Source: a virus
Virus record (IMG/VR): IMGVR_UViG_3300032053_000546
Span: 1 to 23,119 of that record
Reading direction: 5' to 3' (one strand)
Length of the DNA: 23,119 bases
Part shown: positions 6,655 through 23,119 of the stretch, one piece after another
How the letters are laid out: each line of letters starts with the position of its first letter
Position numbering within the stretch: the first letter of the stretch is position 1
Notes under the pieces: generated by a model
Databases searched by the model: none
What the model was told of the DNA's origin: nothing
What the model saw: the letters and a program-made list of their open reading frames with translations, nothing else
Position numbers and translations under genes: made by a program

Positions 6655-8706
6655 ATGGCTCATGAAATTACACTCATAGGAAAATTCATTGTAGCACGAG
6701 CTAAGAACGCAGATACGGCTGGTGATCCATACAATCCTACGAAAGAAAGTCCATTGGAGCTCGATCTCCCTAATCACGATCTGACCTTCTCTCATCCTTC
6801 CCCATTGCCACCACCACCTAAGGTTGAGCTCGGTGCACCAGGTGGCCTTCCTCCCCCTCCAGCGGTTATTCTATCTATACCAGCTGTATTACCGCCTGAG
6901 AAAGCACCGCCACAGTCGGTGCCGGCAGTTCTTCCACCGGAATTAGCTCCACCTCATTCTATTCCGTCTTCTTTGCCGCCTCCACCAGCTACTATAAATC
7001 TATTACCGGCGCCTCTTCCTCTGCCGCCAGCTACGACAAAGTTGCTGCCTTCACCTCTTCCTCTACCACCAACCACAACAAAATTGTTGCCTTCGCCTCT
7101 TCCTCTGCCACCAGCTACAACGAAATTGCTTCCATCATTGTTACCTGCGCCTCCAGCTACTATAAACTTGCTTCCGTCATTGTTACCCTTACCTCCAGCT
7201 ACTGCAAAATCTATACCAGCGCAACTTCCTGCAGCTCCTGGTTTCATTCGTCCAAAACAACAAACGATAGTGTATGGGAAACTTGACCCTCAAATTGATA
7301 CAACTCCGGGTGAGGCACCAGATCCAACAAAAGTTTCTGCGCTCGATTTGAAAACAAACACCACACCAGGTAAAGATCCAGATCCTAAAAAAGTTAATCC
7401 GCAAGCTACTCCTAGCTCTGGGTATTCCATACTTGGGGAAACATACTCTCCGATGCTTGGTGCAGCAGATCCAGGTTCATTAGCAACTGATCCGTTTTTG
7501 CACGAGAGACAAATAGAGAGACTCGCCAGAACAGATCCAGGCAAGGTTGCGCTTCATGCACTGACTCAGGTAGGACTTTTTGCTCAGAACGTGTATGGCA
7601 CTGTATGGAATCCTGCTCTTATACTTCCGCCACCAATTGGACAATTTTTCTTGAAACCAGCGCTTGATCTTGGTGATGGATCCAAAGATAAGCAAGTTCA
7701 AATTGGCGAACTCGTTAATTTTGTTCTAAGTAATACACCTAATACGACGGGGAAAAATCTTGTTAAACCAGACTACAAGACTAACAACCAAGATCTTGCA
7801 GTGATAAAAGAAAGACAGGGCATCACTAGAGGACTTTCTGCAGCTTTCGATAATATTGCCAACAATGCTAGTAATCTTTTCAAGAGTGGTGGTGGAACAC
7901 CAGCCGAAGATCCGATTAAAACATCTGGTGTAGCATTTGAAAACGGCATCATACCGATGAAATTGAAAGGCGATAATAAGTTCGGATTTAGAGTCTTCGC
8001 TGGAGGACAGCCAGGAGCAGAAGATACTTCAGCAGATTCTGTTTATGTGCCACTATGTTTCACAGATCTACGTCCCGTGGGGGACGTATACAGAACGGTT
8101 TACTTTAGACCAATCATAACGAGTCTTGCTGAGTCTCTTTCTCCAGAATGGAACAAATCGCAATACTTTGGAAGAGTAGATCCAGTCGCAACATACATGT
8201 CTACAACACGAACAATCTCTCTAGGATTCGATCTCGTCGCATTTGGACCAGAAGATGTGAGGACTATTTATCAAAAGCTTCATTGGCTTTCTTCTCTTAC
8301 ATATCCAGAGTTGGATAAGAATCTCTCGTATAGATCAGGTCCTGTAGTACGTATGAGAATTGGAGATGTGGTAAATGCTATAGGAAGTGAAGGTGCATAC
8401 GGATTGCCTGGTATTATAGAGAACCTCAATTTTGATTTTACAGATTCTCTCTGGGAACTTAAAGAAAATTTCAAACTTCCTAGACATGTAAAAGTAAGTC
8501 TGACATTCACTGTGCTTCATGACGGACCTGTTGGTAGAGGGAAGGAAGGCAACTTCGGAGTGCTTGGGCAGATTAATCAGCAGGGCACCGATATTAGAAT
8601 ATCTGATATAGGAGAATCAAATATAGCAAGAGAGGACGGATTCAGAAAGTTTGGCAGCGGACAAGAGGTAACCTACGAAACCCTTAAGGAATCCGACGAG
8701 AAATAA
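6655..8706 (+). CDS. Baseplate/tube-cap-like protein with proline-rich repeat region
   Basis: The 683-residue protein has three parts. Residues 1-45 are an ordinary N-terminus. Residues 46-200 are extremely Pro/Leu-rich and include six tandem 14-residue units. Residues 460-660 look globular, with TVYFRPIITSLAESLSPEW, FGRVDPVATYMSTTRTISL and VVRMRIGDVV followed by LPGIIENLNFDF. This pattern recurs in tail tube initiator or cap proteins of contractile tails (T4 gp48/gp54 neighbourhood). Residues 205-450 are low-complexity linker with two TTPG.APDP/KDPDP-type repeats. GAGGAAAG directly before the ATG is a strong binding site. Its place between the tape measure and LysM genes supports a baseplate role. 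The proline tract may form a stiff polyproline-II rod. Confidence 0.65.
   Translation: MAHEITLIGKFIVARAKNADTAGDPYNPTKESPLELDLPNHDLTFSHPSPLPPPPKVELGAPGGLPPPPAVILSIPAVLPPEKAPPQSVPAVLPPELAPPHSIPSSLPPPPATINLLPAPLPLPPATTKLLPSPLPLPPTTTKLLPSPLPLPPATTKLLPSLLPAPPATINLLPSLLPLPPATAKSIPAQLPAAPGFIRPKQQTIVYGKLDPQIDTTPGEAPDPTKVSALDLKTNTTPGKDPDPKKVNPQATPSSGYSILGETYSPMLGAADPGSLATDPFLHERQIERLARTDPGKVALHALTQVGLFAQNVYGTVWNPALILPPPIGQFFLKPALDLGDGSKDKQVQIGELVNFVLSNTPNTTGKNLVKPDYKTNNQDLAVIKERQGITRGLSAAFDNIANNASNLFKSGGGTPAEDPIKTSGVAFENGIIPMKLKGDNKFGFRVFAGGQPGAEDTSADSVYVPLCFTDLRPVGDVYRTVYFRPIITSLAESLSPEWNKSQYFGRVDPVATYMSTTRTISLGFDLVAFGPEDVRTIYQKLHWLSSLTYPELDKNLSYRSGPVVRMRIGDVVNAIGSEGAYGLPGIIENLNFDFTDSLWELKENFKLPRHVKVSLTFTVLHDGPVGRGKEGNFGVLGQINQQGTDIRISDIGESNIAREDGFRKFGSGQEVTYETLKESDEK
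6988..7239 (+). repeat. Six tandem 42-base (14-residue) proline-rich repeats
   Basis: In-frame units start at 6988, 7030, 7072, 7114, 7156 and 7198. The residue consensus is ATTKLLPSPLPLPP, with variants such as ATINLLPAPLPLPP and ATINLLPSLLPLPP. The last unit (ATAKSIPAQLPAAP) is diverged. Two related shorter units (AVLPPEKAPPQSVP and similar) precede the array. Units differ at synonymous positions, so the array is not a recent perfect expansion, yet length change by recombination is easy because the period is a multiple of three. Confidence 0.9.
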
Positions 8707-9026: not shown

Positions 9027-10943
9027 ATGGCTAAAGAGTTCAAAGATGCAGGCCCTAATGACAAACCTGTTCGCCAAGTACCTGTCTCTGAGGCCCTACA
9101 AGCACTAGAACAAATAACAGCTGCGGATAAGGCTCAAGCTGTTCCATATGCTTTGCTATGGGAAATAAATCAAACGACAGGTGAACCGATGCACGGTAAA
9201 GACGGGATCCCATCCAACCCTCTTTCTCTTATTCTTACTCAATCTCCAAAGTTTGGAGCGTCTATTAATAATGTGGACAAATCTAGATTTAGAGAGAGAG
9301 CACCAGTTTCGCTCGAAAGAATTAGCATTAAGACAGAAAACCCAAGAGGGTTAATTATTATTCGTACTGTTAATCTATCTTTCGTTGTTCACAAACCAGA
9401 TGTAATTTTTGAAAAGCATATAGATGAAGATAGGAAGCATCTCACAGATCAAGATTCGTGGTCTTCTTTAATAACTCCCGGTGAGACTTTTGCCTTGGAA
9501 TATGGTTGGGCGTCATCTACTCATGTTAAAAACGGTATATTAAATGGAGAAGGTGTTGCCAATACTAAACCTGGTACAAGCGGCCCTCAAACAGCACCTG
9601 GTAAAGAGTTCATAAAATTTATAGTTGTTAATTACACGTTCAATATTAAGCAGAACAACGAGATTCATTTTAACATTTCTGGATATGAATTAGGTGCGTT
9701 TAGTATGAAGCAGACATTCGTTGCAGAAAAAAGCAGAGAATTGACTAAAAGTGAAAAAAAGAGAGGCTATAAGAATGCACCAGACGCTTATGGTGAATCT
9801 GGGAAAAATCTTAAAGACATTATCAAAAAATTGCAAGATAAAGTGGCAGACCCAGGTGTGACTCAGAACGATAGAAAAAGACGTAACAAGATGGTTAAAA
9901 TGAAAGACCTGTTTAATGTTGTCTTTGCTCCTAAACTTGCAGATGCTTTCAAAGGTGCAGGATTCAATTTAACTGGATTATTTTGGGGTAATATCAACAG
10001 TAGAGCCGGTACCGCTGTTCCAAAATACGTTGGCAAAGGCGGAACATCAATAGGTGATTTTCAAATTCCGCTAATAGATATAGAAAGCATTTTTGTTAAA
10101 CTCATCAATGAAGGAACGAACATGAACGTATATAACTTCATGGAACCATTCCTCAGAATACTTAACGATTCTGCCGTGTGGACTCAAAAAGGCAAACCAG
10201 AAAAACATACCATCCCAAACATTGTTTTGAAAGCTTCTCATCTTGGATCAAAGACAGGGGAAAGTAAGCAGAAGGTAGACATTTATATTTATGATGCCAA
10301 AGATGAGTATGTAAAATTTACATCCGATGAATACGAAAAGGGAAATGAAAATCTCACCCGCGATAAGGTTAGAGAAAAAGTCGAAGCCAAGGGTATTCCA
10401 TTTGTGTCATTAGCAAATGGAAACTCTTACATACAAGATACTAGCTTCCAAGTAGAACAAGATCCACACATGCAAGGTATCATGCAAAGAAAATATTACG
10501 GAAACAACCATTCAGATCGTTCAGATAAGACAAGCAGCCCTGATGTAAAAACAAAAGAGAACTCAGCGGCTGCAATTCAAACAATTTTTTCTGCAAACAT
10601 CACAGGTAAGATCACTATGATTGGAAACTTTGTCATGGGTCAATTCGGTCTCGTGTGGATGGATTTCGGAGTAAAACAATGGGATGGATTGTTCAGAGTG
10701 TACGATAGAGAAGACGTCATCGAAAGAGGAAACTTCACAACCACAATGAACATTAGATCTGAAGGAACAGATCCACTTGGAACTCAAGGTCGACCTCGTC
10801 CTGCTGATTCTGTTAAGGAGCCAAAAAAGGTTGGCAAGAAGAAAAACATTCCTAAAGTGATGTACATTGAAGATGAAAAAACGAAAACTAGCAGGCCTGC
10901 CACTCAATCTGAGGCTGCATCGTCGTTGACGTCTCATATTTAA
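9027..10943 (+). CDS. Large baseplate hub candidate (gp27/gpD-like)
   Basis: The 638-residue protein has strands such as LIIIRTVNLSFVVHKPDVIF and TPGETFALEYGWASS near residues 105-170, a Lys-rich central segment (235-290), and a C-terminal strand pattern YIQDTSFQVEQDPHMQ, FGVKQWDGLFRVYDREDVIE and RGNFTTTMNIRSEGTDP. The last resembles the end of hub domains in gp27/gpD proteins, where a strand that fixes the spike is followed by G.F.T.l.l.R. The last 45 residues are basic and disordered. The neighbourhood (tape measure, cap-like, LysM, then this) is the usual place for the hub. No lysozyme domain is visible. Binding site AAGGTGA precedes the ATG. A wedge protein is the main alternative. Confidence 0.55.
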   Translation: MAKEFKDAGPNDKPVRQVPVSEALQALEQITAADKAQAVPYALLWEINQTTGEPMHGKDGIPSNPLSLILTQSPKFGASINNVDKSRFRERAPVSLERISIKTENPRGLIIIRTVNLSFVVHKPDVIFEKHIDEDRKHLTDQDSWSSLITPGETFALEYGWASSTHVKNGILNGEGVANTKPGTSGPQTAPGKEFIKFIVVNYTFNIKQNNEIHFNISGYELGAFSMKQTFVAEKSRELTKSEKKRGYKNAPDAYGESGKNLKDIIKKLQDKVADPGVTQNDRKRRNKMVKMKDLFNVVFAPKLADAFKGAGFNLTGLFWGNINSRAGTAVPKYVGKGGTSIGDFQIPLIDIESIFVKLINEGTNMNVYNFMEPFLRILNDSAVWTQKGKPEKHTIPNIVLKASHLGSKTGESKQKVDIYIYDAKDEYVKFTSDEYEKGNENLTRDKVREKVEAKGIPFVSLANGNSYIQDTSFQVEQDPHMQGIMQRKYYGNNHSDRSDKTSSPDVKTKENSAAAIQTIFSANITGKITMIGNFVMGQFGLVWMDFGVKQWDGLFRVYDREDVIERGNFTTTMNIRSEGTDPLGTQGRPRPADSVKEPKKVGKKKNIPKVMYIEDEKTKTSRPATQSEAASSLTSHI

Positions 10944-10973: not shown

Positions 10974-12362
10974 ATGGGCGCGACTTTCATCGACGGATAC
11001 CTCGATAGATCAAAGAGTCTTGAGGTTTTTTCGGGCGAAACATACATGTCATATACAAATGGAGTAAAGGAATACTCCATTGATGTGACAGATAAGTTGG
11101 TGTGTTTTGATGCGAGAAAGTTGTATGCCACTGGATTATCACATGAGAAGATGATATATGATCTCAAACTACTCTATGAGTGTGATGGTGAACTTTCTCG
11201 TCTAGTAAGAAGTATAGACATCCAAAGTCGTGGTGACTATTTAGAACTTGAGAAACGTTTCTCTGCACACACCAAAGCTATTTCTGCCGCTAAGGTAGAT
11301 GTAGAAAAAATTCCTTTGAAGGAACTTATTCCAGATGATTTGAGAATAAGCTACATGAATGCACGCCTATTGGTCATGCAACAGCTTTGGGAAAAGTTGT
11401 CTCCTGAAACTATAGTCAAATATGAGAGTACTGTCTTTCCCGTGTTCAAAGATATTTTGCAGATGGAGTCTTCAGGAATAAAGATAGACGAGGTATATGT
11501 AGATGCTCAGCTGAAGAGAAATGATTTAGCTTCCCACGAAACAAAATTCTTTCAGCATATCAAGGGAAACATCAAGAACGGATTTGTCAAGACACGTATC
11601 TGTCCGGTTGGATCAAAGACGTGGCGACTAAGAGTAGAGAGTGGATTCAACTGCATGGCTATACCTCATGGCGTAGCCAGGCGAGCCATTGTCAGTCGCT
11701 TCGAAGGTGGTAAGATAGCGACATTGGACTTCAATGCTGTTGATTATAGGTGCCTGGTTAAGGCTGTAAATAGCGCAGAATTAAATGTTGTATATGACGG
11801 ACAACGTGACTTTCATGCAGCAACAGCGAATGTATTTGGAGTAGTAACACCAGAGCTTCGCGAACAGGTAAAGAAGATAACATATGCTCATATCTACGGA
11901 AGTTCTATCGATACACTACAAAAGCTCACACGTCTACCTCAGGCTAGATTGAACGAGATGATAAAGGTTCTAGATGAAAGGTTCGCTCCCATTACAAAAT
12001 TTAGAAGGGAACTAAGTGACAAGGCAAGAAAGGAAGGGTTTGTAGTCACACCTGCCGGTCATAAGATAGACATCGATAAGAGAGATCATGACGGAAAGAT
12101 AATTGGTCTATTCGCCCAGACATTTAGTTCGTCTATTTTGAATGCTTCATTGAAGATAGCATTACAATTGCTTCATTTTTATAAACTAGATAAAGATTCT
12201 AAAAGTAAGATAATCTTCACTGTTCACGATGAAATAGTTGTAGACGTTCATCCAGAAGAAGAAGGCATCGTTGGTCTCATGAAAAAATTCATAGAGGCCA
12301 TCACAGGGTTCGTAGTCAAACAAAAGGAAGGAAAGAGTTATGGAGAAGCAACTGACGGCTGA
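10974..12362 (+). CDS. Compact family A DNA polymerase
   Basis: The 462-residue protein carries all family A polymerase catalytic motifs: motif A TLDFNAVDYR with D252, an RDFHAATA helix, motif B REQVKKITYAHIYG (R296, K300, Y304, Y308, G309), and motif C VHDE (H418, D419, E420). The palm and fingers are complete, but the N-terminal 160 residues show no intact 3'-5' exonuclease acidic motifs, only a faint degenerate-exonuclease look. The thumb, between QMESSGIKID (near 163-172) and residue 203, is very short. Motif A has Asp257 where E. coli Pol I has the steric-gate Glu710, and Tyr304 replaces Phe762. The gene overlaps the HD gene by 23 bases. Likely roles are replication, repair or translesion synthesis. 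Confidence 0.85.
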   Translation: MGATFIDGYLDRSKSLEVFSGETYMSYTNGVKEYSIDVTDKLVCFDARKLYATGLSHEKMIYDLKLLYECDGELSRLVRSIDIQSRGDYLELEKRFSAHTKAISAAKVDVEKIPLKELIPDDLRISYMNARLLVMQQLWEKLSPETIVKYESTVFPVFKDILQMESSGIKIDEVYVDAQLKRNDLASHETKFFQHIKGNIKNGFVKTRICPVGSKTWRLRVESGFNCMAIPHGVARRAIVSRFEGGKIATLDFNAVDYRCLVKAVNSAELNVVYDGQRDFHAATANVFGVVTPELREQVKKITYAHIYGSSIDTLQKLTRLPQARLNEMIKVLDERFAPITKFRRELSDKARKEGFVVTPAGHKIDIDKRDHDGKIIGLFAQTFSSSILNASLKIALQLLHFYKLDKDSKSKIIFTVHDEIVVDVHPEEEGIVGLMKKFIEAITGFVVKQKEGKSYGEATDG

Positions 12363-12948
12363 GGAGTTGATGGCAGAGGTAGGTATCTTCAATAGCCTTG
12401 TCGAGATTATGCCAGAACCACGTCGGAGCCTCGTGAAAGCCATGATGGATGGTCAGGTGGGGCAGTCATATTTCGTTGCTCCTGCATCCTCGAGGGAGGA
12501 ATTCCACAGTTGCTTTCCCGGAGGATTACTTGTTCATTCTCTTAATGTTGTCAAGAACTTGAGAAGACTAGTCAAGGCACTATGCCCAGGGAAATATAAC
12601 GATGCCACAGTGGCTTTCGTGGGTCTATTTCATGATCTGGGTAAGGTAGGAGATGGAAAGGAAGAGTACTACGTTCCGAATCAATCCGATTGGCATAAGC
12701 AGAAAGGTATGCTTTATGAGATTAACAAAAACTGTGTCTGGATGCCAACCTCAGAACGAGGTCTTTATATTCTCCAGAAGAACGGAATAGAGGTCACCTC
12801 CGACGAATATCTTGCCATTAGGTTGAATGATGGGCAATATGATGAGACAAATAAGGGATACCGTATGAAAGAACCTGGACTTGCACTTCTGGTTCATTGG
12901 GCAGATATGTGGTCATGTCAGCTCGAGAAAACATCTACCATAGACTAA
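12340..12948 (+). CDS. HD-domain metal-dependent phosphohydrolase
   Basis: The 202-residue protein has the HD superfamily residues H66 (GGLLVHSLNVV), H98-D99 (GLFHDLGKVGDG) and D189 (LLVHWADMWS), which bind catalytic metal ions. Such proteins hydrolyse phosphate esters of nucleotides or nucleic acids. The segment IRLNDGQYDETNKGY before the last motif is typical of a phage-associated HD family. It has no fused GAF, EAL or RelA domain. The start lies inside the polymerase gene after AAGGAAGGAAAGAG, a very strong binding site, so the two are probably co-translated. A nucleotide-pool or dNTPase-like role beside a polymerase is plausible; the substrate is unknown. Confidence 0.82.
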   Translation: MEKQLTAEELMAEVGIFNSLVEIMPEPRRSLVKAMMDGQVGQSYFVAPASSREEFHSCFPGGLLVHSLNVVKNLRRLVKALCPGKYNDATVAFVGLFHDLGKVGDGKEEYYVPNQSDWHKQKGMLYEINKNCVWMPTSERGLYILQKNGIEVTSDEYLAIRLNDGQYDETNKGYRMKEPGLALLVHWADMWSCQLEKTSTID

Positions 12949-13012
12949 AAGGAAATAGTCGCTCTACTTAATCTGTGAAGCCCGCCCTTTCTATGTCCAT
13001 GGGAGTTATTTA

Positions 13013-13537
13013 ATGAAGATTAAGAGATCTGTTTTAGAGAAGATTATTCGTGAAGAATTGGTCAATCACATTCGTGAGATGACCGAAGCTCCGAAAGATG
13101 ATAAAAAGAAAAAGGTTGCAGCGGTTGTAGATGCTTCAGCAGAAAAGAAGCAAAAAGAAAAACCAGATGGTAAGGGCGAAGAAACCCCGACTAAGCCATC
13201 CGTCGGTCAAGAAATTCAAAAGGCGTCTCCAAACAACAAAGAGGATCCGCCTGAACTTCCTGTGGGAAGCGAACCTAAAGCAGATGCAGATCTCGAAACA
13301 GATGTGGCAGATCCAGAAGATGAAGAGGATGCCGCTGATGTGACTGGTGGTAAAATTGCCGACGAGGTAAGTGGTAAGACCATCCAGAGTGTAACTATGG
13401 AACCGAAATCAAAAATTCTTCCGGGTGCCCAAGAGATTACACTCACATTTAGAGAGATTCCCGATCCTCTAAAGATTCTTATTACAAAGTCTGGACAAGT
13501 CAAATTCCACTTTAAGGGTCTTCATAACGAACTATGA
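13013..13537 (+). CDS. Acidic, largely disordered phage protein of unknown function
   Basis: The 174-residue product begins with a short amphipathic helix, MKIKRSVLEKIIREEL, an N-terminal pattern I associate with phage proteins of unknown role. Residues 25-125 are Lys/Glu/Asp/Pro-rich and probably unstructured. The last 45 residues (EITLTFREIPDPLKILITKS and beyond) look like a small beta domain. GGGAGTT lies eight bases before the ATG. Its TGA overlaps the next gene's ATG (ATGA), so translation is coupled. A scaffold-like or virion accessory role is possible but unsupported. Confidence 0.7.
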   Translation: MKIKRSVLEKIIREELVNHIREMTEAPKDDKKKKVAAVVDASAEKKQKEKPDGKGEETPTKPSVGQEIQKASPNNKEDPPELPVGSEPKADADLETDVADPEDEEDAADVTGGKIADEVSGKTIQSVTMEPKSKILPGAQEITLTFREIPDPLKILITKSGQVKFHFKGLHNEL

Positions 13538-13863: not shown

Positions 13864-14394
13864 ATGCCGTTTAAGTCTAACGCTCAGAGAAAGTGGATGT
13901 TCGTTCATCATCCTAAGATGGCGAAACGTTGGGCTAAACACACAGATGAAAGCGATAGTGCGGAGGGGTTTGAGGTTGGTGAAATTCGCCATGACATGGA
14001 TCCATTAGGGATGAGAGAGATGCCTCACATGGCTGCCGATATGGACATGCATGGAAAACATGTTACGGTGGTTGATCTTCAAGTGGAAAAATATCCTCTC
14101 TCAAGAGAGGAAAAAAGCAGACTCTTTAGGGCATTTGCAAAATCTGGATTTGTTGGTGAACTAGATGGTGAATTTTTCCATTTCAAACCAGATTATACAA
14201 TAGACGTTGTAGATCAAGTGGCAGCAAGAAAGCTTGCTAGACTTCCCGTAGGATGGGATAAGTTGATGGTAACAGAAGCTCACATGGGGAACAAATATAT
14301 ACCAGATGAAGAAGATACGATGCTGAGTCACAAAGCTGTTTGTGGTGACGATGAAGTACCGAAGATGACAAATGTTTTTCTAACTAAGAGGTAA
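13864..14394 (+). CDS. Unknown protein with phage-type SNAQRKWMFVHHP N-terminus
   Basis: The 176-residue product starts MPFKSNAQRKWMFVHHPKMA, a short basic and aromatic motif common in small phage proteins, generally of unknown function. Residues 35-65 are Met/His-rich (GMREMPHMAADMDMHGKH) and could bind metal. Residues 65-150 look like a compact alpha/beta domain. The C-terminus ends VPKMTNVFLTKR, matching the end of the next protein (SPKMTEIFKIR). Start and stop are set by the immediately adjoining genes. No enzyme motif is seen. Confidence 0.75.
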   Translation: MPFKSNAQRKWMFVHHPKMAKRWAKHTDESDSAEGFEVGEIRHDMDPLGMREMPHMAADMDMHGKHVTVVDLQVEKYPLSREEKSRLFRAFAKSGFVGELDGEFFHFKPDYTIDVVDQVAARKLARLPVGWDKLMVTEAHMGNKYIPDEEDTMLSHKAVCGDDEVPKMTNVFLTKR

Positions 14395-14398
14395 TCAA

Positions 14399-14716
14399 AT
14401 GCCAGGAATAAGCCACGGTCTCCCAGGAAGTCAAGGTGTAAAAGGATTAAGTTTCAAAGAATTTAAGGAAGATCATCCAGATGTTGCAGATTCTTTTCTA
14501 GATATATTTCCTAAACAACGCGGTGGCGTCAATGATGGACTCCCCTCACAATTAATTGATAAAGTAAAGTTCGATGTTTTAGAAACTCCACAACACGAAG
14601 CAAGTTTCGAAGCACGTGTGAACGGTAAGCGAATTGCTACATATCTTGGAATTAATGCAGAATGGGTGTCTGATGCAGGCTCACCCAAAATGACAGAGAT
14701 CTTTAAAATTAGATAA
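14399..14716 (+). CDS. Small unrecognised protein ending in PKMTEIFKIR
   Basis: The 105-residue product is soluble, with a Gly-rich start (MPGISHGLPGSQG), a helix HPDVADSFLDIFPK and a beta-rich centre (VKFDVLETPQHEASFEARV). Its last ten residues share PKMT.(V/I)F with the preceding protein. AGAGG lies just upstream of the ATG, overlapping the previous stop region. No family is recognised. It closes the small-gene operon ahead of the FtsZ-like gene. Confidence 0.75.
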   Translation: MPGISHGLPGSQGVKGLSFKEFKEDHPDVADSFLDIFPKQRGGVNDGLPSQLIDKVKFDVLETPQHEASFEARVNGKRIATYLGINAEWVSDAGSPKMTEIFKIR

Positions 14717-14740: not shown

Positions 14741-15931
14741 ATGTCTGACTTGAATCTACCAGAAATTCCGCTTGAAGCAGAAGTACCTTCCGATGTAGAA
14801 GATGTACGTGATGAATCACTCGGAGCAGCTTCTTATGCTTTTATTGGCTCCGGGCAGGGAGGCGGAAGACTCGCTGAAGCGTTTTACAGGCTGGGGTATA
14901 AGAAGACTATTTGCGTTAATACCGCGAAACAAGATCTTGCTAGCTTAAGTTTACCAGACGAACAAAAGATTCTTATTCCGGCTGGCGAACAAGGTGCTGG
15001 AAAAGATATGAGAATTGGCGAAGAGGCAGCAGCCAATGCACAACAACAAGTTTTTGAGCTCATCAAGAAGAAGTTCGGTAGTGTAGATCACATTTTCGTT
15101 TGTCTTGGTGCTGGTGGTGGAAGTGGAGGGGGTTCGAGTCTAGTGCTAATTGAGACAGCGAAGAAACTTCTTACATCATTGGGCGTAGATAATGTAGATC
15201 AGAAGGTTGGTGTGGTAATGTCTCTACCAACAAACGGGGAATGTGCCTCACCGAACGTTGCTCGCAATGCCCAGTTCCTTGCAAGCGCTCTGACCAAATA
15301 CGCCTCAGAGAAACTAATCAGTCCACTCATTGTCGTCGACAACGACAAAATTCAGAAGATGTATCCGCGACTTACTGTCAAGGAATTCTGGCCAACTGTT
15401 AATGCCACAGTGGCAGGATTATTCCACGTCTTCAATTTGATCCCTACCAAAGACACCCCGTATACTACATTCGATGCTGCTGATTATGGTTCGATCATGC
15501 GAGCTGGAGGATGTATGATAATGGGAGTGACGTCGGTAAAGGACTTGAAAGACGCGAACGGCATTTCTTCTGCCATCAGGGGAAACTTAGAAAAGACACT
15601 TCTAGCTGAGGGCTTCGATCTCCGTACTGCCACCCATGCAGCAGCTATAGTGCTTGGTGGTAAAAGTATCTTTGAGCAGACGCCGGGGCTCATGGGGGCC
15701 ATCGAGGGTGGATTAGATACCCTTGCCATGATGACTGGTAAAGCAATGGTGCATCGAGGCATCTACGAGGACGACAAGGATCGTCTTGCGGTGTATACTC
15801 TTGTCGGTGGACTCGCATCTCCAGATAAAAGAATCAAAGCTCTTGGACGTCATCAAGCTCCTAAAGGAGATGAAAAAACAGAATCAAATATGCCTGCTCC
15901 AAAATTTGGAAGCAGACTTTATGATGAGTGA
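14741..15931 (+). CDS. FtsZ/tubulin-family GTPase
   Basis: The 396-residue protein shows the tubulin/FtsZ GTP-binding loops in order: T1 FIGSGQGGGRLAEA (34-47), a CVNTAKQDL strand-loop (58-66), T3 GEQGAGKDMRIGEEAA (82-97), the tubulin signature loop GAGGGSGGGS (123-132), and the T7 loop FDAADYGSIMRAGG with D245 and D248 aligned to the FtsZ catalytic aspartates. It is therefore expected to bind GTP and polymerise. An acidic 28-residue N-terminal extension precedes the fold, and the Lys-rich tail lacks an obvious FtsA/ZipA-binding peptide. The sequence reads as more FtsZ-like than the PhuZ proteins. It could position phage DNA or a replication compartment, or disturb host division. AAGGAAG precedes the ATG. 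Confidence 0.9.
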   Translation: MSDLNLPEIPLEAEVPSDVEDVRDESLGAASYAFIGSGQGGGRLAEAFYRLGYKKTICVNTAKQDLASLSLPDEQKILIPAGEQGAGKDMRIGEEAAANAQQQVFELIKKKFGSVDHIFVCLGAGGGSGGGSSLVLIETAKKLLTSLGVDNVDQKVGVVMSLPTNGECASPNVARNAQFLASALTKYASEKLISPLIVVDNDKIQKMYPRLTVKEFWPTVNATVAGLFHVFNLIPTKDTPYTTFDAADYGSIMRAGGCMIMGVTSVKDLKDANGISSAIRGNLEKTLLAEGFDLRTATHAAAIVLGGKSIFEQTPGLMGAIEGGLDTLAMMTGKAMVHRGIYEDDKDRLAVYTLVGGLASPDKRIKALGRHQAPKGDEKTESNMPAPKFGSRLYDE

Positions 15932-16331: not shown

Positions 16332-19300
16332 ATGTCCAAGCAGAAGTTTCGCCCACCAAATGAAACTCAAGGTGCGGGATTTAGAGGTCCGCAGGGATTT
16401 CCAGTTCCGTCAGATATGAAAGTTAATTTTGGCGACGAGAAGGAAGTCGACAAAGAATATGATGCAAGTATCGACTCAGTTCTTGAGGATACTATCACAG
16501 ATTTGCTTGATGCAAAGAAAACAGATCTTGTGAAAATTAGTCAGCTGCCAGACTTTGTTGAACCAAAATCTCCATTGGATATAGTTGTTCGTAATATTGT
16601 GGATGGAATGCTAGGAGAGGGTGGTGCTGCCGTCAATGGTGACAGGATACCTCGTGAGCATATTGCGTCTACCATAGAGAGTTTCAAGAGCACTGTTCTA
16701 TCTAAGATAAAGTACAAATCGGTAAAGCCTATAGGATCCACAGGTAAAAAAGTATCAAGTGGAGACCTAGACCTGGGTCTCGATACAGACCTGACACTCG
16801 ATCAGGTAGCAGAGATAATCAAGTCGCTTGGTCTTGAGTTCAAAGCAAATAAGGGGCTAGGAGAAGTAAGCATCAAGTTCCCACAGATGGATCCTGAAGG
16901 GAAGGAAACTGGGAAATTTGCACAGGTAGATCTCATGATTGGTCCAGAAGCATGGACGCAGTTTCAGTATTACGGACCGGGAGATGAAGAATCAAAGTAT
17001 TCAGGTGTCCATGTTCGCGGAATAGTTAACGCAATAATAAACGTAATAACTGGTCACTCAGTTAGTCCAGCTCGTGGTATTTTTAGAAAGGACGACCCAG
17101 ATAAGAAATACATGCAGGACCCTCAGCACGCCGTTTCTCTGATTTCAAAAGGAAGCTCTGAACCGTGGACTGTTAAAGACCTTAGTCAGCCATTCGAAAA
17201 AATTTGGGACAAAACAAAGCGTTCATTCAAACCTGACGAGTTGGCGAAAATAAAAGAATACTACTTGGGTTTTATGAAATCTACCAAGCGTGAAGTTCCA
17301 AGTGAGCTTGGTGAAGCTGCCGGCGACAAACCTAGCGATCTTCCTGGTGGAATTGCGCATCTAGAAGATATGAAGCCAGACGAATTCATGCGCTTCCTAG
17401 AGAAATATAAAGACCTTCCTTTGAACGGCGGGCTCGAAGTATCTGAGAAGGTCGATGGCTCTGCACGTGTGAGCTTTGGTGTAGAAAATGGCAAAGTGTG
17501 GACACAGTCAAAGAACGGTCCAAAGAAGACAGATGCTTCTCAGTATGGTGATAAGTCTATGTTCCAGGCTTTGAAAGCTGGTCACCAAGCTCTCACTTCA
17601 AAAGAAAAAGAGATTGTCGGCGCCTGGCCAAAAGATATTGCGTTTCTAGTTGCCGAAGTATTGTATACAAAAATACCAAATTCAATAGAATATGGACCCA
17701 ACGTCATTATGGTGCATGGTGTCCATAAGGCTGATGGAAGCGTTGTGCCAGAGTCCGAAGGGAAGAAGATTGTTGATGCCATTACATCTGCCGCTGGTGG
17801 AAAATTGTCAGATGGCAAAGATGAATGGAAGTTCGAATATAAACGCATCGTAAATCCAGAAGATGTTATGGTAGATGTGAAGGAAGAGTTCTCTTCCATT
17901 TCAGAAATTTATAACGAACTAAAGAAATTAGAACCTAATAAGTTAAAAGCTATCGGCAAAGTTCCATATAATGCCTCGCTTAAGAAGTTTAAAGATATTC
18001 AGCTAGCCCTCAAGAAGAAGTTGATTGGGCAACTGCGTAAGCAAAAGTCTGTCTACGGACCAGAGGGTGGGGATGTTGAAGGACTTGTGTTTCGCGACCT
18101 TGAAACAGGAGACATGACAAAGCTTGTAGATAAGGATTACTTCACCAAACTAAACAATTTCCTCTGGAACTATAGGAAGATGTTGGATGCTGGTGTGAAG
18201 ATTGGCGACAAGTGGGAATTCGGGATTATGCAGAAGTTTCGTAATGCCATTGCCGATAATGTGGTTGGTGCACCCGCTGCAAAGATGCAGAGCTTTGTTA
18301 GTACACTGAAGAAGTTTGGAACAGATATCAAATATCCACCTGCTGCGAACACACCAGAGAAGAGAGCCGATTATCTTCTGTCTCAGTATATCAAGAAGAA
18401 CGATCTAATGAAGGGTGATTTTGTTTCTGGATTCAAGAAGGAACTCGTTAGCATAAGAAAAGAGTTTGATAAACTCAGTGCAAAGTGGAACTCCAAAAAG
18501 AAGGGGCAACTTGTCCACCATGTAAAGGATGACGAAGGAAACATTATCAAGACTGTCAAGATGGATCCTATCATAAAATCAAGGACAGATGAGTCTTTCA
18601 AAGGTATGGAAGATTTTCTCAATGGTGTCACCAAAGGTCTTGATCAAGCACAAAAGATGCGTGGCGAATTGACAAAGAGGACTGCTCTTCTCAAACTGAT
18701 GATGGGGCCAGGAAGGTTCGGTAAACTAGCCGCTGATCAACCTGAAGAAGAATTGGGTGAAGCTACCTCTGCTAGCCACGAAGCAGAGAGATCTGCGTCC
18801 GGATCAGGTAAGAGAGTCCAGCGTACAACTGATATAGTTTCGAAGTTCAGGGAAAAGCTTCTTGCTCGAGGCGTCAAGTTGTCAGATAATCCAGAGCATC
18901 TCGGCACCGGAACAAAAGGTACCGCGTTGGCTCTTGACGATGGCAACGTTCTGAAAGTTACAGAAGACGAAAACGAGGCTCTCGCATCGAATAAGATAAA
19001 GATGAAAGGAAAGAAGCTCAATCACGTCGTCAACATTCTAGATGTGTTCAAGTTTCCCGGGCCTGAAGGACTATTCGGTATAGTTCAAGAGAAGCTCACC
19101 CCTATACCAGGGTCACATACTATCCAGGCGGCGGCGACAGGTGAGGCGGCCGAACTGAACAAAGCATTCGTAAAGACATTCATGTACGATGCTCTTGATG
19201 CTGCTCCAGGTCCCTGGGAGGTAGTGATAAAATTAATCCTCAGGATCTACAAAACAAAGTTGACCAGCATAGGAGCAGACAAAGGTGCTCAGATGCAGAA

Positions 19301-22300
19301 AGATTTCGCAGAAGGAATACGCCTGTTAAAGCAGTACAAGGTGAATGAGATGGTTGATGAACTATTTAAGAGTGGAATAGAGTTCACCGATTATCATTCT
19401 GCAAACATTATGAAGCGATCTGACGGGACACCGGTTGTAACAGACCTGGGATATTCAGATGTTCACGGTGGTATTCTGCCAGACGTCCTCGAGAAGGATC
19501 TGAAGGAAAACATCGAGGGCGAGCAGGTTGCTCCTATACTTCAGATGTACGTTCCGAAGCTCAAGAAGAGGGGCATCAACGTAAAGAAGATAAAGATCCT
19601 TGGGTCTGGTTGGAACGGTGTCGCGTTTGACATCGGTGACCAGGTTCTCAAGATGACAGAGGACCAGTCAGAAGCCAAAGCAAGCATGCATATCAAGGGG
19701 AAGGAGCTTAAGCATATAGGGAACATCTATGACGTCTTCCAGTTTCCAGAACCGAATGATACATGGTATGGTATACTCCAGGAGAACCTGACACAGTTGT
19801 CTACGACAGAGAAGACGGCTTTGACAAGGGCATTCAACCTTGTCGCCAGGTTCTTCAACTATTCAGATATGGGTGCCGGCCAAAAAAATCCTGACTATGT
19901 GAACTTTATCTGGCATACTCCATGGGACGAGCTAAAGAAGAGGGTGACCAAAAATGTACAAAACGGTGGTAGCGAAGAGGTAGAAGCTATGCTGCCTAAA
20001 GTGTTCGATACTCTTGAGAAGGCCAAGATACCAGATATGTTCAAGGAGCTTGACAAGGCAGGGGTAAAATATGGTGACGTGCATGTGGACAACATTATGA
20101 AAAGAGGATCTGACTACGTGGTTATAGATCTTGGTGGAGCATCGCAGTCTGCCGGAGCGACTCCTCCTATCCTTGAAGATGTGGTTGAGAGTGTCCTCGA
20201 AGGACTCAGAGAGGGACATGCAGATCAGGTAGGGGTTACATTGGGCAGATTCCAACCGTTTCACCGAGGTCATGCCACCATCATTAGAGACCTTGCCAAG
20301 AAATTCAACAAGGTAATTGTCATCGTAGCTGGCAATTCTAAAGATAAGAAGAATCCTTTTTCATTCGAGACACGCGTAGACTTAATGAAGAAGTCACTGC
20401 CAGATGTTATGTCTAAAGTAGAAATACATAAAGCACAATTCGGAGGAAAAGGAAGTGGTTATATTCCAGGAGTTATCTCTGACATCATTACAAACAAGCA
20501 ATCTACTTTAGATAAAGATACTGCGATTCAAGTGTTGGTTGGTGAGGACCGTGTTGAAGATATAAAGAAACAAATGGCCCACGCTCTTCAAACAAAAGAA
20601 AAAGAAGCCTCTTCATCACCTGTCGTCGGCGCTACATCACAAGTTTACTTTGACCCGTCACTTGCCACAGTCGGTGCTCTGCCAGGAGTTAAGAATGATG
20701 ATGATGCAGATAGGATCTCAGGAACAAGAGTAAGAGAAGCTTTGGCAAATGATGATGAGGATTCTGTAAAGCAAATGATGGACCCTCACCTTGTTTCGAA
20801 TCCAGCAGAGTTTGAAAGATTATATATTCAAATGAAAAAAGAACTCGCTGCAAATCAACCTACTAAGAAGTCTTCAAATGTCTCGACAGTTGGCGCACAA
20901 CCAGTGAAAGAAGCTCTGGGTTCGCATATGTCTCCGGCCGATATAGAAGACATCCTAGATGACAACCAGCAAGCTCTTTTCAATCATCGCCCACGTTCTA
21001 TCGATGTAAAGCGACGTAGGGCTCTAGGTCAGGGAAAAGATGGCGTTGCATATGATGTTGGTGGAAACATTGTTCTCAAGGTTACGACTGATACTCCTGA
21101 AGCTGTCACATCATTTGGCATCAAAGGAAAATCATTAGAGAGTATTGTTCACATCTATGACGTGTTCCGCTTTGATCTAGAAAAACAAGCACCAGAGAAC
21201 CCTATGGGCGCGCGGCGTGGTAATCTTTCCGGACCGCTGTACGGGATAGTCACTGAAAAACTTATTCCACTTTCACAGGAAGAGGCTAAAGAGTTTGATG
21301 AGTCTATTGCATATGCTATGGATCCAGATTACAAGTCTATTACACGGTCCTTTATAAAACAAGGAGATTGGCCAGGTCTGATGAACGCTATAAAGACCAA
21401 AGTTATACCATCTGCACATAAGAACGAAGCGCAAGAAGAAGATTCTCAATCTACGAAACCGGCGCGGATAAGAACAACACAACCTTCTTCACCATTTAAT
21501 AAGAATTATAAAGCTCCCGACAAGCTCGCACCGGCAAATAATCTATTAGGAAATGAAGATCATGATCAGCTCGCTAAGGATGTAGAAGAAACATTGACAA
21601 GATTTAACCTTCCTGGTATCATGAAAGACCTCAAGACGGCAGGAATAGAGTTCGTAGATTTCCACAGCGGAAATATAATGAAGAGGGGAGGTAAGTACGT
21701 AATAAACGATCTTGGCAGATCTGATTCTACGTCTACAGCCCAACCTCCGAAGCTGAAGACGGAGGACGTGATAGTGGACGTGTTCCAAAAACTGTTTGAG
21801 GATGCTTTCACCGGACTTGGTAGATCAGGGACAGGAATGAAAGCTGGTAGTTCACAATGGTCTACAGCAAGCAAGAAAGGTAAAAATGTAGATGATCAAT
21901 TATACAGCAAGTTTTCAGAACCATTTCATCGAGGAACTGCAAACGTAGTAACAGACGAACCCGTTATTGATGAAGCAGGTGAACAGGGTAACCTAGGTCT
22001 GTCTGGTATCGATAAACAAAAACATACTCCTGTAAAAGAAAATGTATGGAATCCATGGACACCTGCCACAGATACAGTTCCATTTGATCCAGCAAATGGT
22101 AAAAGCAGTGCTGGTAGAGGCGAAACAAAACTGGCGGCAGAGCTTGAAATTCGAGGAAAGAAAATTGGAAACATAGTTGGTACGCAGTCTTATGACCTCG
22201 ATGTCGATGGTGAGAAATGGGAAGTAAAAGAATACGGACCTATTAGAATAGAAGCCTCAGGTCAAGCGGCAGCACAAAAGACATTGAATTTCTTTATGGG

Positions 22301-23119: not shown

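Follow-up and report, generated by a model that had tools for sequence, protein, structure and literature searches.

Single polypeptides of phages and mobile elements that bring together 2 to 15 unrelated domains, the polyvalent proteins, carry an embedded zincin-like peptidase in about 36% of cases (PMC5512222). A different type of precedent is provided by the internal head proteins of phage T4, from which gp21 trims N-terminal peptides (PMC9958956), with a related protease, that of phage SPN3US, cutting after A-x-E and favouring serine at P1', the position following the cut (PMC10052503). Also pertinent are the RNA-repair sets of jumbo phages, in which an RlaP nucleotidyltransferase (NTase) and an Rnl ligase are set against tRNA-cutting defences (PMC7824862), and cyanophage S-CREM2, in whose virions mass spectrometry detected 52 proteins, a cytidylyltransferase and a kinase among them (PMC10665884). 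The present concern is a giant open reading frame (ORF), P0001, of the virus record IMGVR_UViG_3300032053_000546, the whole of which, 23,119 nucleotides as stored, was analysed and is termed the window. With a probability of roughly 0.7, P0001 is read here as an internal head protein of the polyvalent kind, made by a T4-related myovirus; it would be cleaved inside the prohead, enter the capsid and, once delivered, serve as a kit for RNA repair and takeover. The seams between its enzymes resemble sites of a head-assembly protease, and so the virus probably packs these enzymes in its head.

The giant frame and its enzyme modules

16332 to 23117, plus strand: P0001, giant ORF of at least 2262 amino acids, 3' end open

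The frame starts at an ATG at 16332, with AAGAGG six bases 5' of it, and continues for 2262 codons without a stop up to the contig end, as a first-pass annotation made from the letters alone had stated; since the record ends inside the frame, the protein has at least 2262 residues. The contig is a piece of a myovirus, with a T4-type tail tube (182-673) and a T4 baseplate protein (2561-3385) above Pfam cut-offs. Seven modules are distinguished.

16620 to 17306, plus strand: Pol-beta-type NTase, about residues 97-325 (G135-S136...D145-x-D147, D200; profile and AlphaFold)
17352 to 18725, plus strand: ATP-type RNA ligase with conserved C-terminal extension, residues 341-798 (K373-x-D-G, E442, E583-G, K597)
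18846 to 19457, plus strand: kinase-like module 1, residues 839-1042 (K875, D1020/N1025, D1038)
19548 to 20141, plus strand: kinase-like module 2, residues 1073-1270 (K1107, D1249/N1254, D1266)
20223 to 20846, plus strand: NadM-like nucleotidyltransferase of the HIGH superfamily, residues 1298-1505 (H1311-R-G-H1314; I1462-S-G-T-R-V-R1468)
20964 to 21722, plus strand: kinase-like module 3, residues 1545-1797 (K1583, D1776/N1781, D1793)
22104 to 22901, plus strand: PD-(D/E)XK-like segment, residues 1925-2190 (E1931, D1955, E1964-V-K1966)

The borders are profile ends, from seeds chosen by the author, with the NTase start placed at an E-G-G site; the profiles were built from the same polyproteins, and their domain E-values were used for borders only. 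It is confirmed that all seven, from the Pol-beta NTase and the RNA-ligase fold through the three kinase-like domains and the NadM-like enzyme to the PD-(D/E)XK-like segment, lie in a single frame. The motif residues sought are present in all seven domains (the annotation had counted intact catalytic residues in six), each motif being taken in its usual form.

The NadM-like domain is the sole one to pass a Pfam cut-off when the whole protein is searched (CTP_transf_like, 2.8e-12). It also matches PHROG cytidyltransferase families (3.7e-18) and has both the HxGH and the ISxTxxR motifs of the NadM type; a fused Nudix domain, a trait of NadM enzymes that was tested for, had no model match in Pfam or PHROG anywhere in P0001. 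The excised ligase matches Pfam RNA_lig_T4_1 at 2.6e-4, which falls under that model's cut-off. Its K373, D375-G376, E442, E583-G584 and K597 are invariant in 10 of 10 aligned members, four of which are matched by RNA_lig_T4_1 and four by RNA_ligase. The three kinase-like segments align with one another through a common lysine, D-x-H-x-x-N and D-L-G, and kinase cut-offs of Pfam are passed in one relative, L083 (APH 1.1e-8, ABC1 3.3e-8).

Structure prediction bears out the folds in part. An AlphaFold model of residues 97-810, made with 18 sequences, has a predicted local distance difference test score (pLDDT) of 84.5, with the NTase and ligase folds confident. The annotation had named failure of the predicted folds as refuting its view, and for these two modules the folds did not fail. 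Compared by VIA-align, the ligase model is closest to Naegleria RNA ligase (Z 11.6, root-mean-square deviation (rmsd) 3.6 over 190 residues), T4 Rnl1 (10.9) and T4 Rnl2 (10.8), and the NTase model to the CD-NTase CdnG (Z 9.3, rmsd 2.3 over 93 residues) and CutA (9.1). By its modelled fold the ligase is of the RNA type, fold alone being no proof of substrate. Ten NTase members searched against Pfam at E up to 1 matched 10 families, with no RlaP model among them. For the PD-(D/E)XK-like segment E1931, D1955 and E1964-x-K1966 are invariant in four aligned sequences (the window and three relatives), but the model is poor (pLDDT 40.2), so that the call stands on the motif. Profile searches of the PDB gave nothing firm: the best NTase match was CdnE at 0.13, the ligase had none, a kinase matched YopO at 0.026 and the nuclease-like segment matched fusion constructs with myosin.

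Predicted cleavage motifs at the module junctions

The consensus of the T4 prohead protease is I/L-x-E. Sites of this general type occur around the P0001 modules as follows, with an arrow for the predicted cut.

16611 to 16622, plus strand: predicted cleavage site LGE96↓G, directly before the NTase fold, at the position where standalone NTases end their leader
17307 to 17318, plus strand: predicted cleavage site LGE328↓A, NTase/ligase linker (by motif; low-pLDDT linker)
18753 to 18764, plus strand: predicted cleavage site LGE810↓A, between ligase and kinase 1 (by motif)
19500 to 19511, plus strand: weaker candidate LKE1059↓N, between kinases 1 and 2 (relaxed P1' only)
20169 to 20216, plus strand: candidate cluster ILE1282, VVE1286, VLE1290, LRE1294↓G, before the NadM-like module (by motif)
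20904 to 20915, plus strand: predicted cleavage site VKE1527↓A, between NadM-like module and kinase 3 (by motif)
21792 to 21803, plus strand: weaker candidate LFE1823↓D, after kinase 3 (relaxed P1' only)
21966 to 21977, plus strand: predicted cleavage site IDE1881↓A, before the PD-(D/E)XK-like segment (by motif)
22032 to 22043, plus strand: weaker candidate VKE1903↓N, before the PD-(D/E)XK-like segment (relaxed P1' only)

The linker with LGE328↓A is probably a disordered stretch (model residues 232-242). In P0001 and seven related polyproteins, introduced below, 50 of 86 hydrophobic-x-E↓[AGS] sites fall in linkers, against 23 expected on circular shift (p=0.0002, the lowest value the test can give), and in P0001 alone 8 of 13 do so (p=0.009). 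Moving the domain ends by -15 to +10 residues, or retaining profile-defined domains only, keeps p at or below 0.0004. Matched controls had no linker enrichment, neither polar-x-E↓[AGS] (20/97) nor hydrophobic-x-[DQNK]↓[AGS] (48/213), and a scan of all 20 residues at P1 shows clear enrichment for Glu (p=0.002, the floor with 500 shifts) and a weak one for Met (8/16, p=0.02).

Viewed by junction, 39 of the 42 in the eight polyproteins have a site with relaxed P1' ([AGSTNDQ]) and 30 with [AGS], the corresponding figures for intradomain stretches of the same length being 26% and 15%. Per 1000 residues, linkers have 13.6 sites and domains 3.2. For 313 other ORFs on these contigs the figure is 4.05, and some of those ORFs are spurious since they, like the other ORFs in the leader counts below, come from a simple longest-first caller. 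An embedded zincin peptidase was sought through HExxH or HExxxH, and both motifs are absent from all eight polyproteins. As far as sequence can tell, then, the junctions carry a putative gp21-type cleavage motif.

The abundance of such sites bears on the possibility that P0001 is packaged but kept whole in the head and injected intact, in the manner of the N4 virion RNA polymerase, with the sites little used or unused. N4 and plasmid proteins furnish a precedent (PMC5512222), but sites occupy nearly every junction, and they stand where separately encoded enzymes end their leader, which makes intact delivery quite improbable.

Related polyproteins and separately encoded homologues

A first scan with the whole of P0001 returned no relatives, which were then recovered from viral contigs with domain pieces and alignments; whole-protein tblastn against 50,697 phage records at E up to 0.001 matched the NadM-like domain only, in 21 records. 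The seven further polyproteins of the P0001 kind comprise five that are closed at both ends (L081, 2507 amino acids; L083, 1905; L156, 2017; L004, 1222; L003, 1178) and two, L082 and L155, with an open 5' end and a stop present; three further loci (L079, L080, L153) look like the same phage as L082. A common order of domains, which the first-pass annotation had proposed to look for in related phages, was not what emerged, as both module order and content differ among the relatives. That in L081 has an InPase domain (PF18823, 1.9e-33) and that in L156 an SLT lysozyme-type transglycosylase (6.4e-27); ART-like and 2H-like parts in L081, L082, L083 and L003 were recognized by eye only.

The annotation had named an assembly chimera, with relatives encoding each domain separately, as what would overturn its view. 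The window is indeed a linear piece of metagenomic sequence that ends before the frame closes, which would suit a chimera or read-through artefact. However, the same kind of fusion occurs in seven polyproteins from different contigs and samples, most of them closed at both ends, and flanking genes are shared. Such an artefact is thus extremely improbable and is rejected, even though relatives do encode separate genes.

That enzymes of this kind are normally separate phage genes holds: other phages encode NTase, ligase and NadM individually. In L012 ligase, NadM and NTase are three adjacent genes, the ligase being of a second family with a conserved G-H-[ML]-x-H-P start, and separate ligase and NTase genes occur in L159, L163, L164, L166, L169 and L172. 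Partial fusions exist as well, a NadM-ligase fusion beside an NTase at seven loci (L173-L178, L180), which probably represent few distinct phages as L174-L178 and L180 look like one phage sampled repeatedly, and a ligase-NTase fusion in L167 and L168. Among cultured phages with a fusion the nearest is Microcystis phage Mel-JY01, which has a NadM-ligase ORF at 11243-13162. A scan of GTDB with the ligase, a single test, found no relative, which fits lytic phages.

Many of the separate genes start with a leader. Among NTase, ligase or NadM genes, alone or fused, 48 of 125 have the leader motif at residues 5-35, against 225 of 1628 other ORFs of the same loci; no excess is left at residues 36-66 (10/125 and 192/1628). 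The rows were collapsed by their first 50 residues, and related rows remain. Many NTases end the leader in E↓GG, and before the fold the polyproteins have LGE↓GG (P0001), LTE↓GG (L082) and VLE↓GG (L156). The NTase ORFs that could be parsed number 45. Of these, 29 show hydrophobic-x-E↓[AGS][GS] within 75 residues upstream of the catalytic motif, another 11 start MGGN, as if already cut, and five have neither; 29 more were dropped as the search pattern did not locate the catalytic motif. Every one of the 42 distinct ORFs of the second ligase family has hydrophobic-x-E↓[GA]G directly before the conserved start, which is internal to a fusion in 40 (the motif was spotted by eye before it was counted). 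A leader with a site is also at the N-terminus of the L083 and L156 polyproteins, as in many separately encoded homologues. The simplest history is that leader-tagged genes were joined with their cut sites retained.

A second kind of giant fusion was encountered in uncultured phages (L016, L017, L024, L025, L038, L062 and others), with a NadM-like N-terminus, a variable middle and a different RNA-ligase-like C-terminus; the middle in L038 has a HEMVH zincin-like stretch.

Prohead protease and virion data

A T4-type prohead protease (Peptidase_S77) is encoded in the three longest polyprotein contigs, G002 (1.5e-33), G026 (7.8e-29) and G027 (5.6e-36); overall the domain was found in 15 of 28 records and in 5 of 15 of another set. 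In two of these contigs the major capsid candidates, named by eye, have LIKE↓S (G002) and LLNE↓Q (G026) before the conserved part.

As to virions, the S-CREM2 cytidylyltransferase matches the NadM profiles at 3e-10 and 3e-8, the kinase the kinase profile weakly (5e-4), and the two proteins start MKNFSSFLTE↓A and MKRFDAFLTE↓E, respectively. T4-like leaders are also present on the S-adenosylmethionine (SAM) hydrolase and the Cas9-annotated virion protein, so that all four named non-structural, non-lysis virion proteins have one within their first 30 residues. The leader pattern is found in 6 of the 28 virion proteins outside the structural list versus 6 of 124 ORFs outside the virion list (p=0.0097), and in 1 of 24 structural virion proteins.

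A side observation concerns gp12 of S-CREM2 (L286 7704-10313), annotated as a CRISPR-associated Cas9-like endonuclease and found in virions, with LRFASFMAE↓A within its first 30 residues. It would be odd for a Cas9-like nuclease to be packaged.

Proposed mechanism and its weighing

We infer late expression, cleavage and packaging of P0001, its injection and the function of each enzyme along the following lines. The late-expressed polyprotein would enter the prohead core, where the phage's protease of the T4 gp21 type, acting on intermodule linkers as it does on the leaders of internal head proteins, would cut after hydrophobic-x-Glu, and the freed enzymes would remain in the head to enter the cell with the DNA. 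There the NTase and RNA ligase may repair RNA that host defence nucleases have cut, probably tRNA, the NadM-like enzyme may serve nucleotide or nicotinamide adenine dinucleotide (NAD) chemistry, the kinases may modify host targets, and the nuclease-like part may act on nucleic acid. By analogy, the pairing of a Pol-beta NTase with an RNA ligase would follow the RNA-repair logic of jumbo phages, pointing to a possible anti-defence role.

NadM without NadV is unusual: PMC9503650 states that every phage with NadM has NadV. Of 14 records searched with the NadV model PF04095, the 12 picked for a NadM-like gene, which include two full-length cultured genomes, have no match; most of the 12 are fragments and the genome of the window is incomplete, so the lead is soft. 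The other two, G035 and G036 (loci L166 and L168), are long phage records chosen for ligase and NTase, and both encode a NadV-type phosphoribosyltransferase (8.1e-49, 2.8e-30). The NadM-like enzyme may use host nicotinamide mononucleotide (NMN) or do something else.

The chief competitor is an uncut multifunctional enzyme acting inside the cell, from an early or middle gene, fused for co-regulation or channelling, with the Glu sites a chance property of linkers. Fused RNA-repair partners would suit channelling, ligase lying beside NTase at several loci, and both the missing T4-like leader of P0001 and the slight linker enrichment of Glu as such (see below) would be expected of it. However, hydrophobic-x-Glu is far more enriched while its matched controls are not, separately encoded homologues bear leaders, published mass spectrometry places a NadM-like enzyme and a kinase in virions, and in five phages the gene adjoins structural ones. 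Nor do kinases, nuclease and ligase act as successive steps in a single pathway. An uncut intracellular enzyme is therefore considered unlikely.

Several points nevertheless weigh against P0001 being a cut and packaged head protein. Glu by itself is slightly enriched in linkers (309/1108, p=0.014), as is any E↓[AGS] (78/245, p=0.019). While P0001, L082, L083 and L155 individually have p<0.05, L081 (p=0.20), L156 (p=0.07), L003 (p=0.07) and L004 (p=0.67) are not individually significant; the polyproteins are akin, so that their junctions are not independent, and some domain ends were placed by eye. A leader-helix matrix missed the junctions, with 5 of 12 matches in linkers (p=0.16) and none in P0001, and is rejected as junction evidence. 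The N-termini of P0001 and L003 are without a T4-like leader. The shorter polyprotein records (G001, G003, G028, G029, G031, G032; 11 to 44 kb) have no Peptidase_S77 match, and as the window is without head genes its own protease is out of sight. The published virion detection is of S-CREM2 enzymes, not of any P0001 fragment, and the S-CREM2 authors allow for carry-over in the CsCl preparation (PMC10665884). Finally, 54 of 79 new loci from the NTase scan are without ligase, NadM or kinase nearby by the author's profiles, so the enzyme set is loose and non-obligatory.

On balance a true polyprotein strategy is favoured, in which leader-tagged head proteins, once separate, were concatenated with their sites kept and cutting in the prohead yields an equimolar RNA-repair, nucleotide, kinase and nuclease kit, with modules shuffled between phages. 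The observation of the first-pass annotation is confirmed and its interpretation, a shared fate such as packaging in the capsid, is partly supported: the support for capsid packaging of the P0001 enzymes is indirect, from junction sites, leaders, the protease in the longest contigs and the S-CREM2 virion enzymes.

If the reading is right, tailed phages gain a polyprotein strategy based on a maturation protease, with the prohead protease filling the role that embedded or picornavirus-type proteases have elsewhere. RNA repair, NAD-type chemistry and kinases would then come into play within the first minutes of infection, as host nucleases attack, and giant unannotated frames beside structural genes in uncultured phages would be accounted for. 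From a practical perspective, hydrophobic-x-Glu followed by a small residue at a leader or module border is a candidate rule that may flag phage enzymes travelling in the head.

Gene neighbourhood

The window genes at 6655, 9027, 10974 (family A polymerase), 12340 (HD) and 13013 have blastp matches in G026, G027, G002 and G028, and in all four the polyprotein adjoins these shared genes, making five phages with the window; the tail tube and baseplate proteins have blastp matches in G026 and G002 only. The protein of 9027-10940 had no match in a search of phage records.

13013 to 13537, plus strand: neighbour gene with a capsid-targeting-like leader ending MTE↓A (counterparts end FFE↓A in G026, MSE↓A in G027 and LYE↓A in G002)

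Near the polyprotein is a gene for a Tubulin/FtsZ-TubZ-like GTPase (14741-15931; Pfam Tubulin 8.7e-11), with relatives in G026 (64% identical) and G027 (27%) and no blastp match in G002 or the fetched part of G028; by eye, the capsid proteins of G002 and G026 look gp23-like, not PhiKZ-like. The family A DNA polymerase-like gene (10974-12362; 8.5e-24) is of 462 amino acids only and lies within the structural run, where the N-terminal third of another gene's product (6655-8706) is marked by a long proline-rich repeat, PPPATTKLLPSPLPL with variants of it. Between structural genes, at 2311-2465, a tRNA-Ile (anticodon aat) stands beside an odd tRNA-like call with a two-base anticodon. The genes at 694-1479, 13864-14394 and 14399-14716 have short segments in common, e.g. 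PKMTEIFKIR, PKMTNVFLTKR and PLLTEVFKIKEG, possibly another packaging or processing signal.

Comparison with known systems

The T4 internal proteins IPI-III and Alt resemble the present case in having N-terminal peptides trimmed by gp21, with relatives of P0001 having a T4-type protease and separate homologues similar leaders, and differ in being single small proteins, whereas P0001 has about seven modules and several sites and no such N-terminal leader (PMC9958956). The virion kinase and NMN-adenylyltransferase-like proteins of S-CREM2-type cyanophages are of the same superfamilies and have the same leader type, but are products of separate genes (PMC10665884). The jumbo-phage repair sets likewise pair an NTase with an ATP-type RNA ligase, and in the available portion of the source are not described as packaged or as a polyprotein (PMC7824862).

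Closest are the polyvalent proteins, in which one phage polypeptide unites many unrelated enzyme domains and is believed to be packaged and then delivered; kinases and Pol-beta NTases are parts shared with P0001, and InPase and lysozyme-type domains with its relatives (PMC5512222). Unlike that of P0001, their Pol-beta NTases have a minimal form that occurs mainly in firmicute elements. The P0001 kind differs further in being without the zincin motif, in RNA ligase and NadM modules that are not among the parts described in the accessible text, and in having prohead-protease-type junction sites and leader-bearing separate homologues (PMC5512222). In the open-access literature no description was found of processing sites at module borders in such phage polyproteins, nor of the combination set out next. 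P0001 thus fits the known class of polyvalent proteins as that source, in the part available, presents it, and what seems to be new is the combination of RNA ligase and NadM-like modules, no embedded peptidase motif, junction sites and leader-tagged separate homologues.

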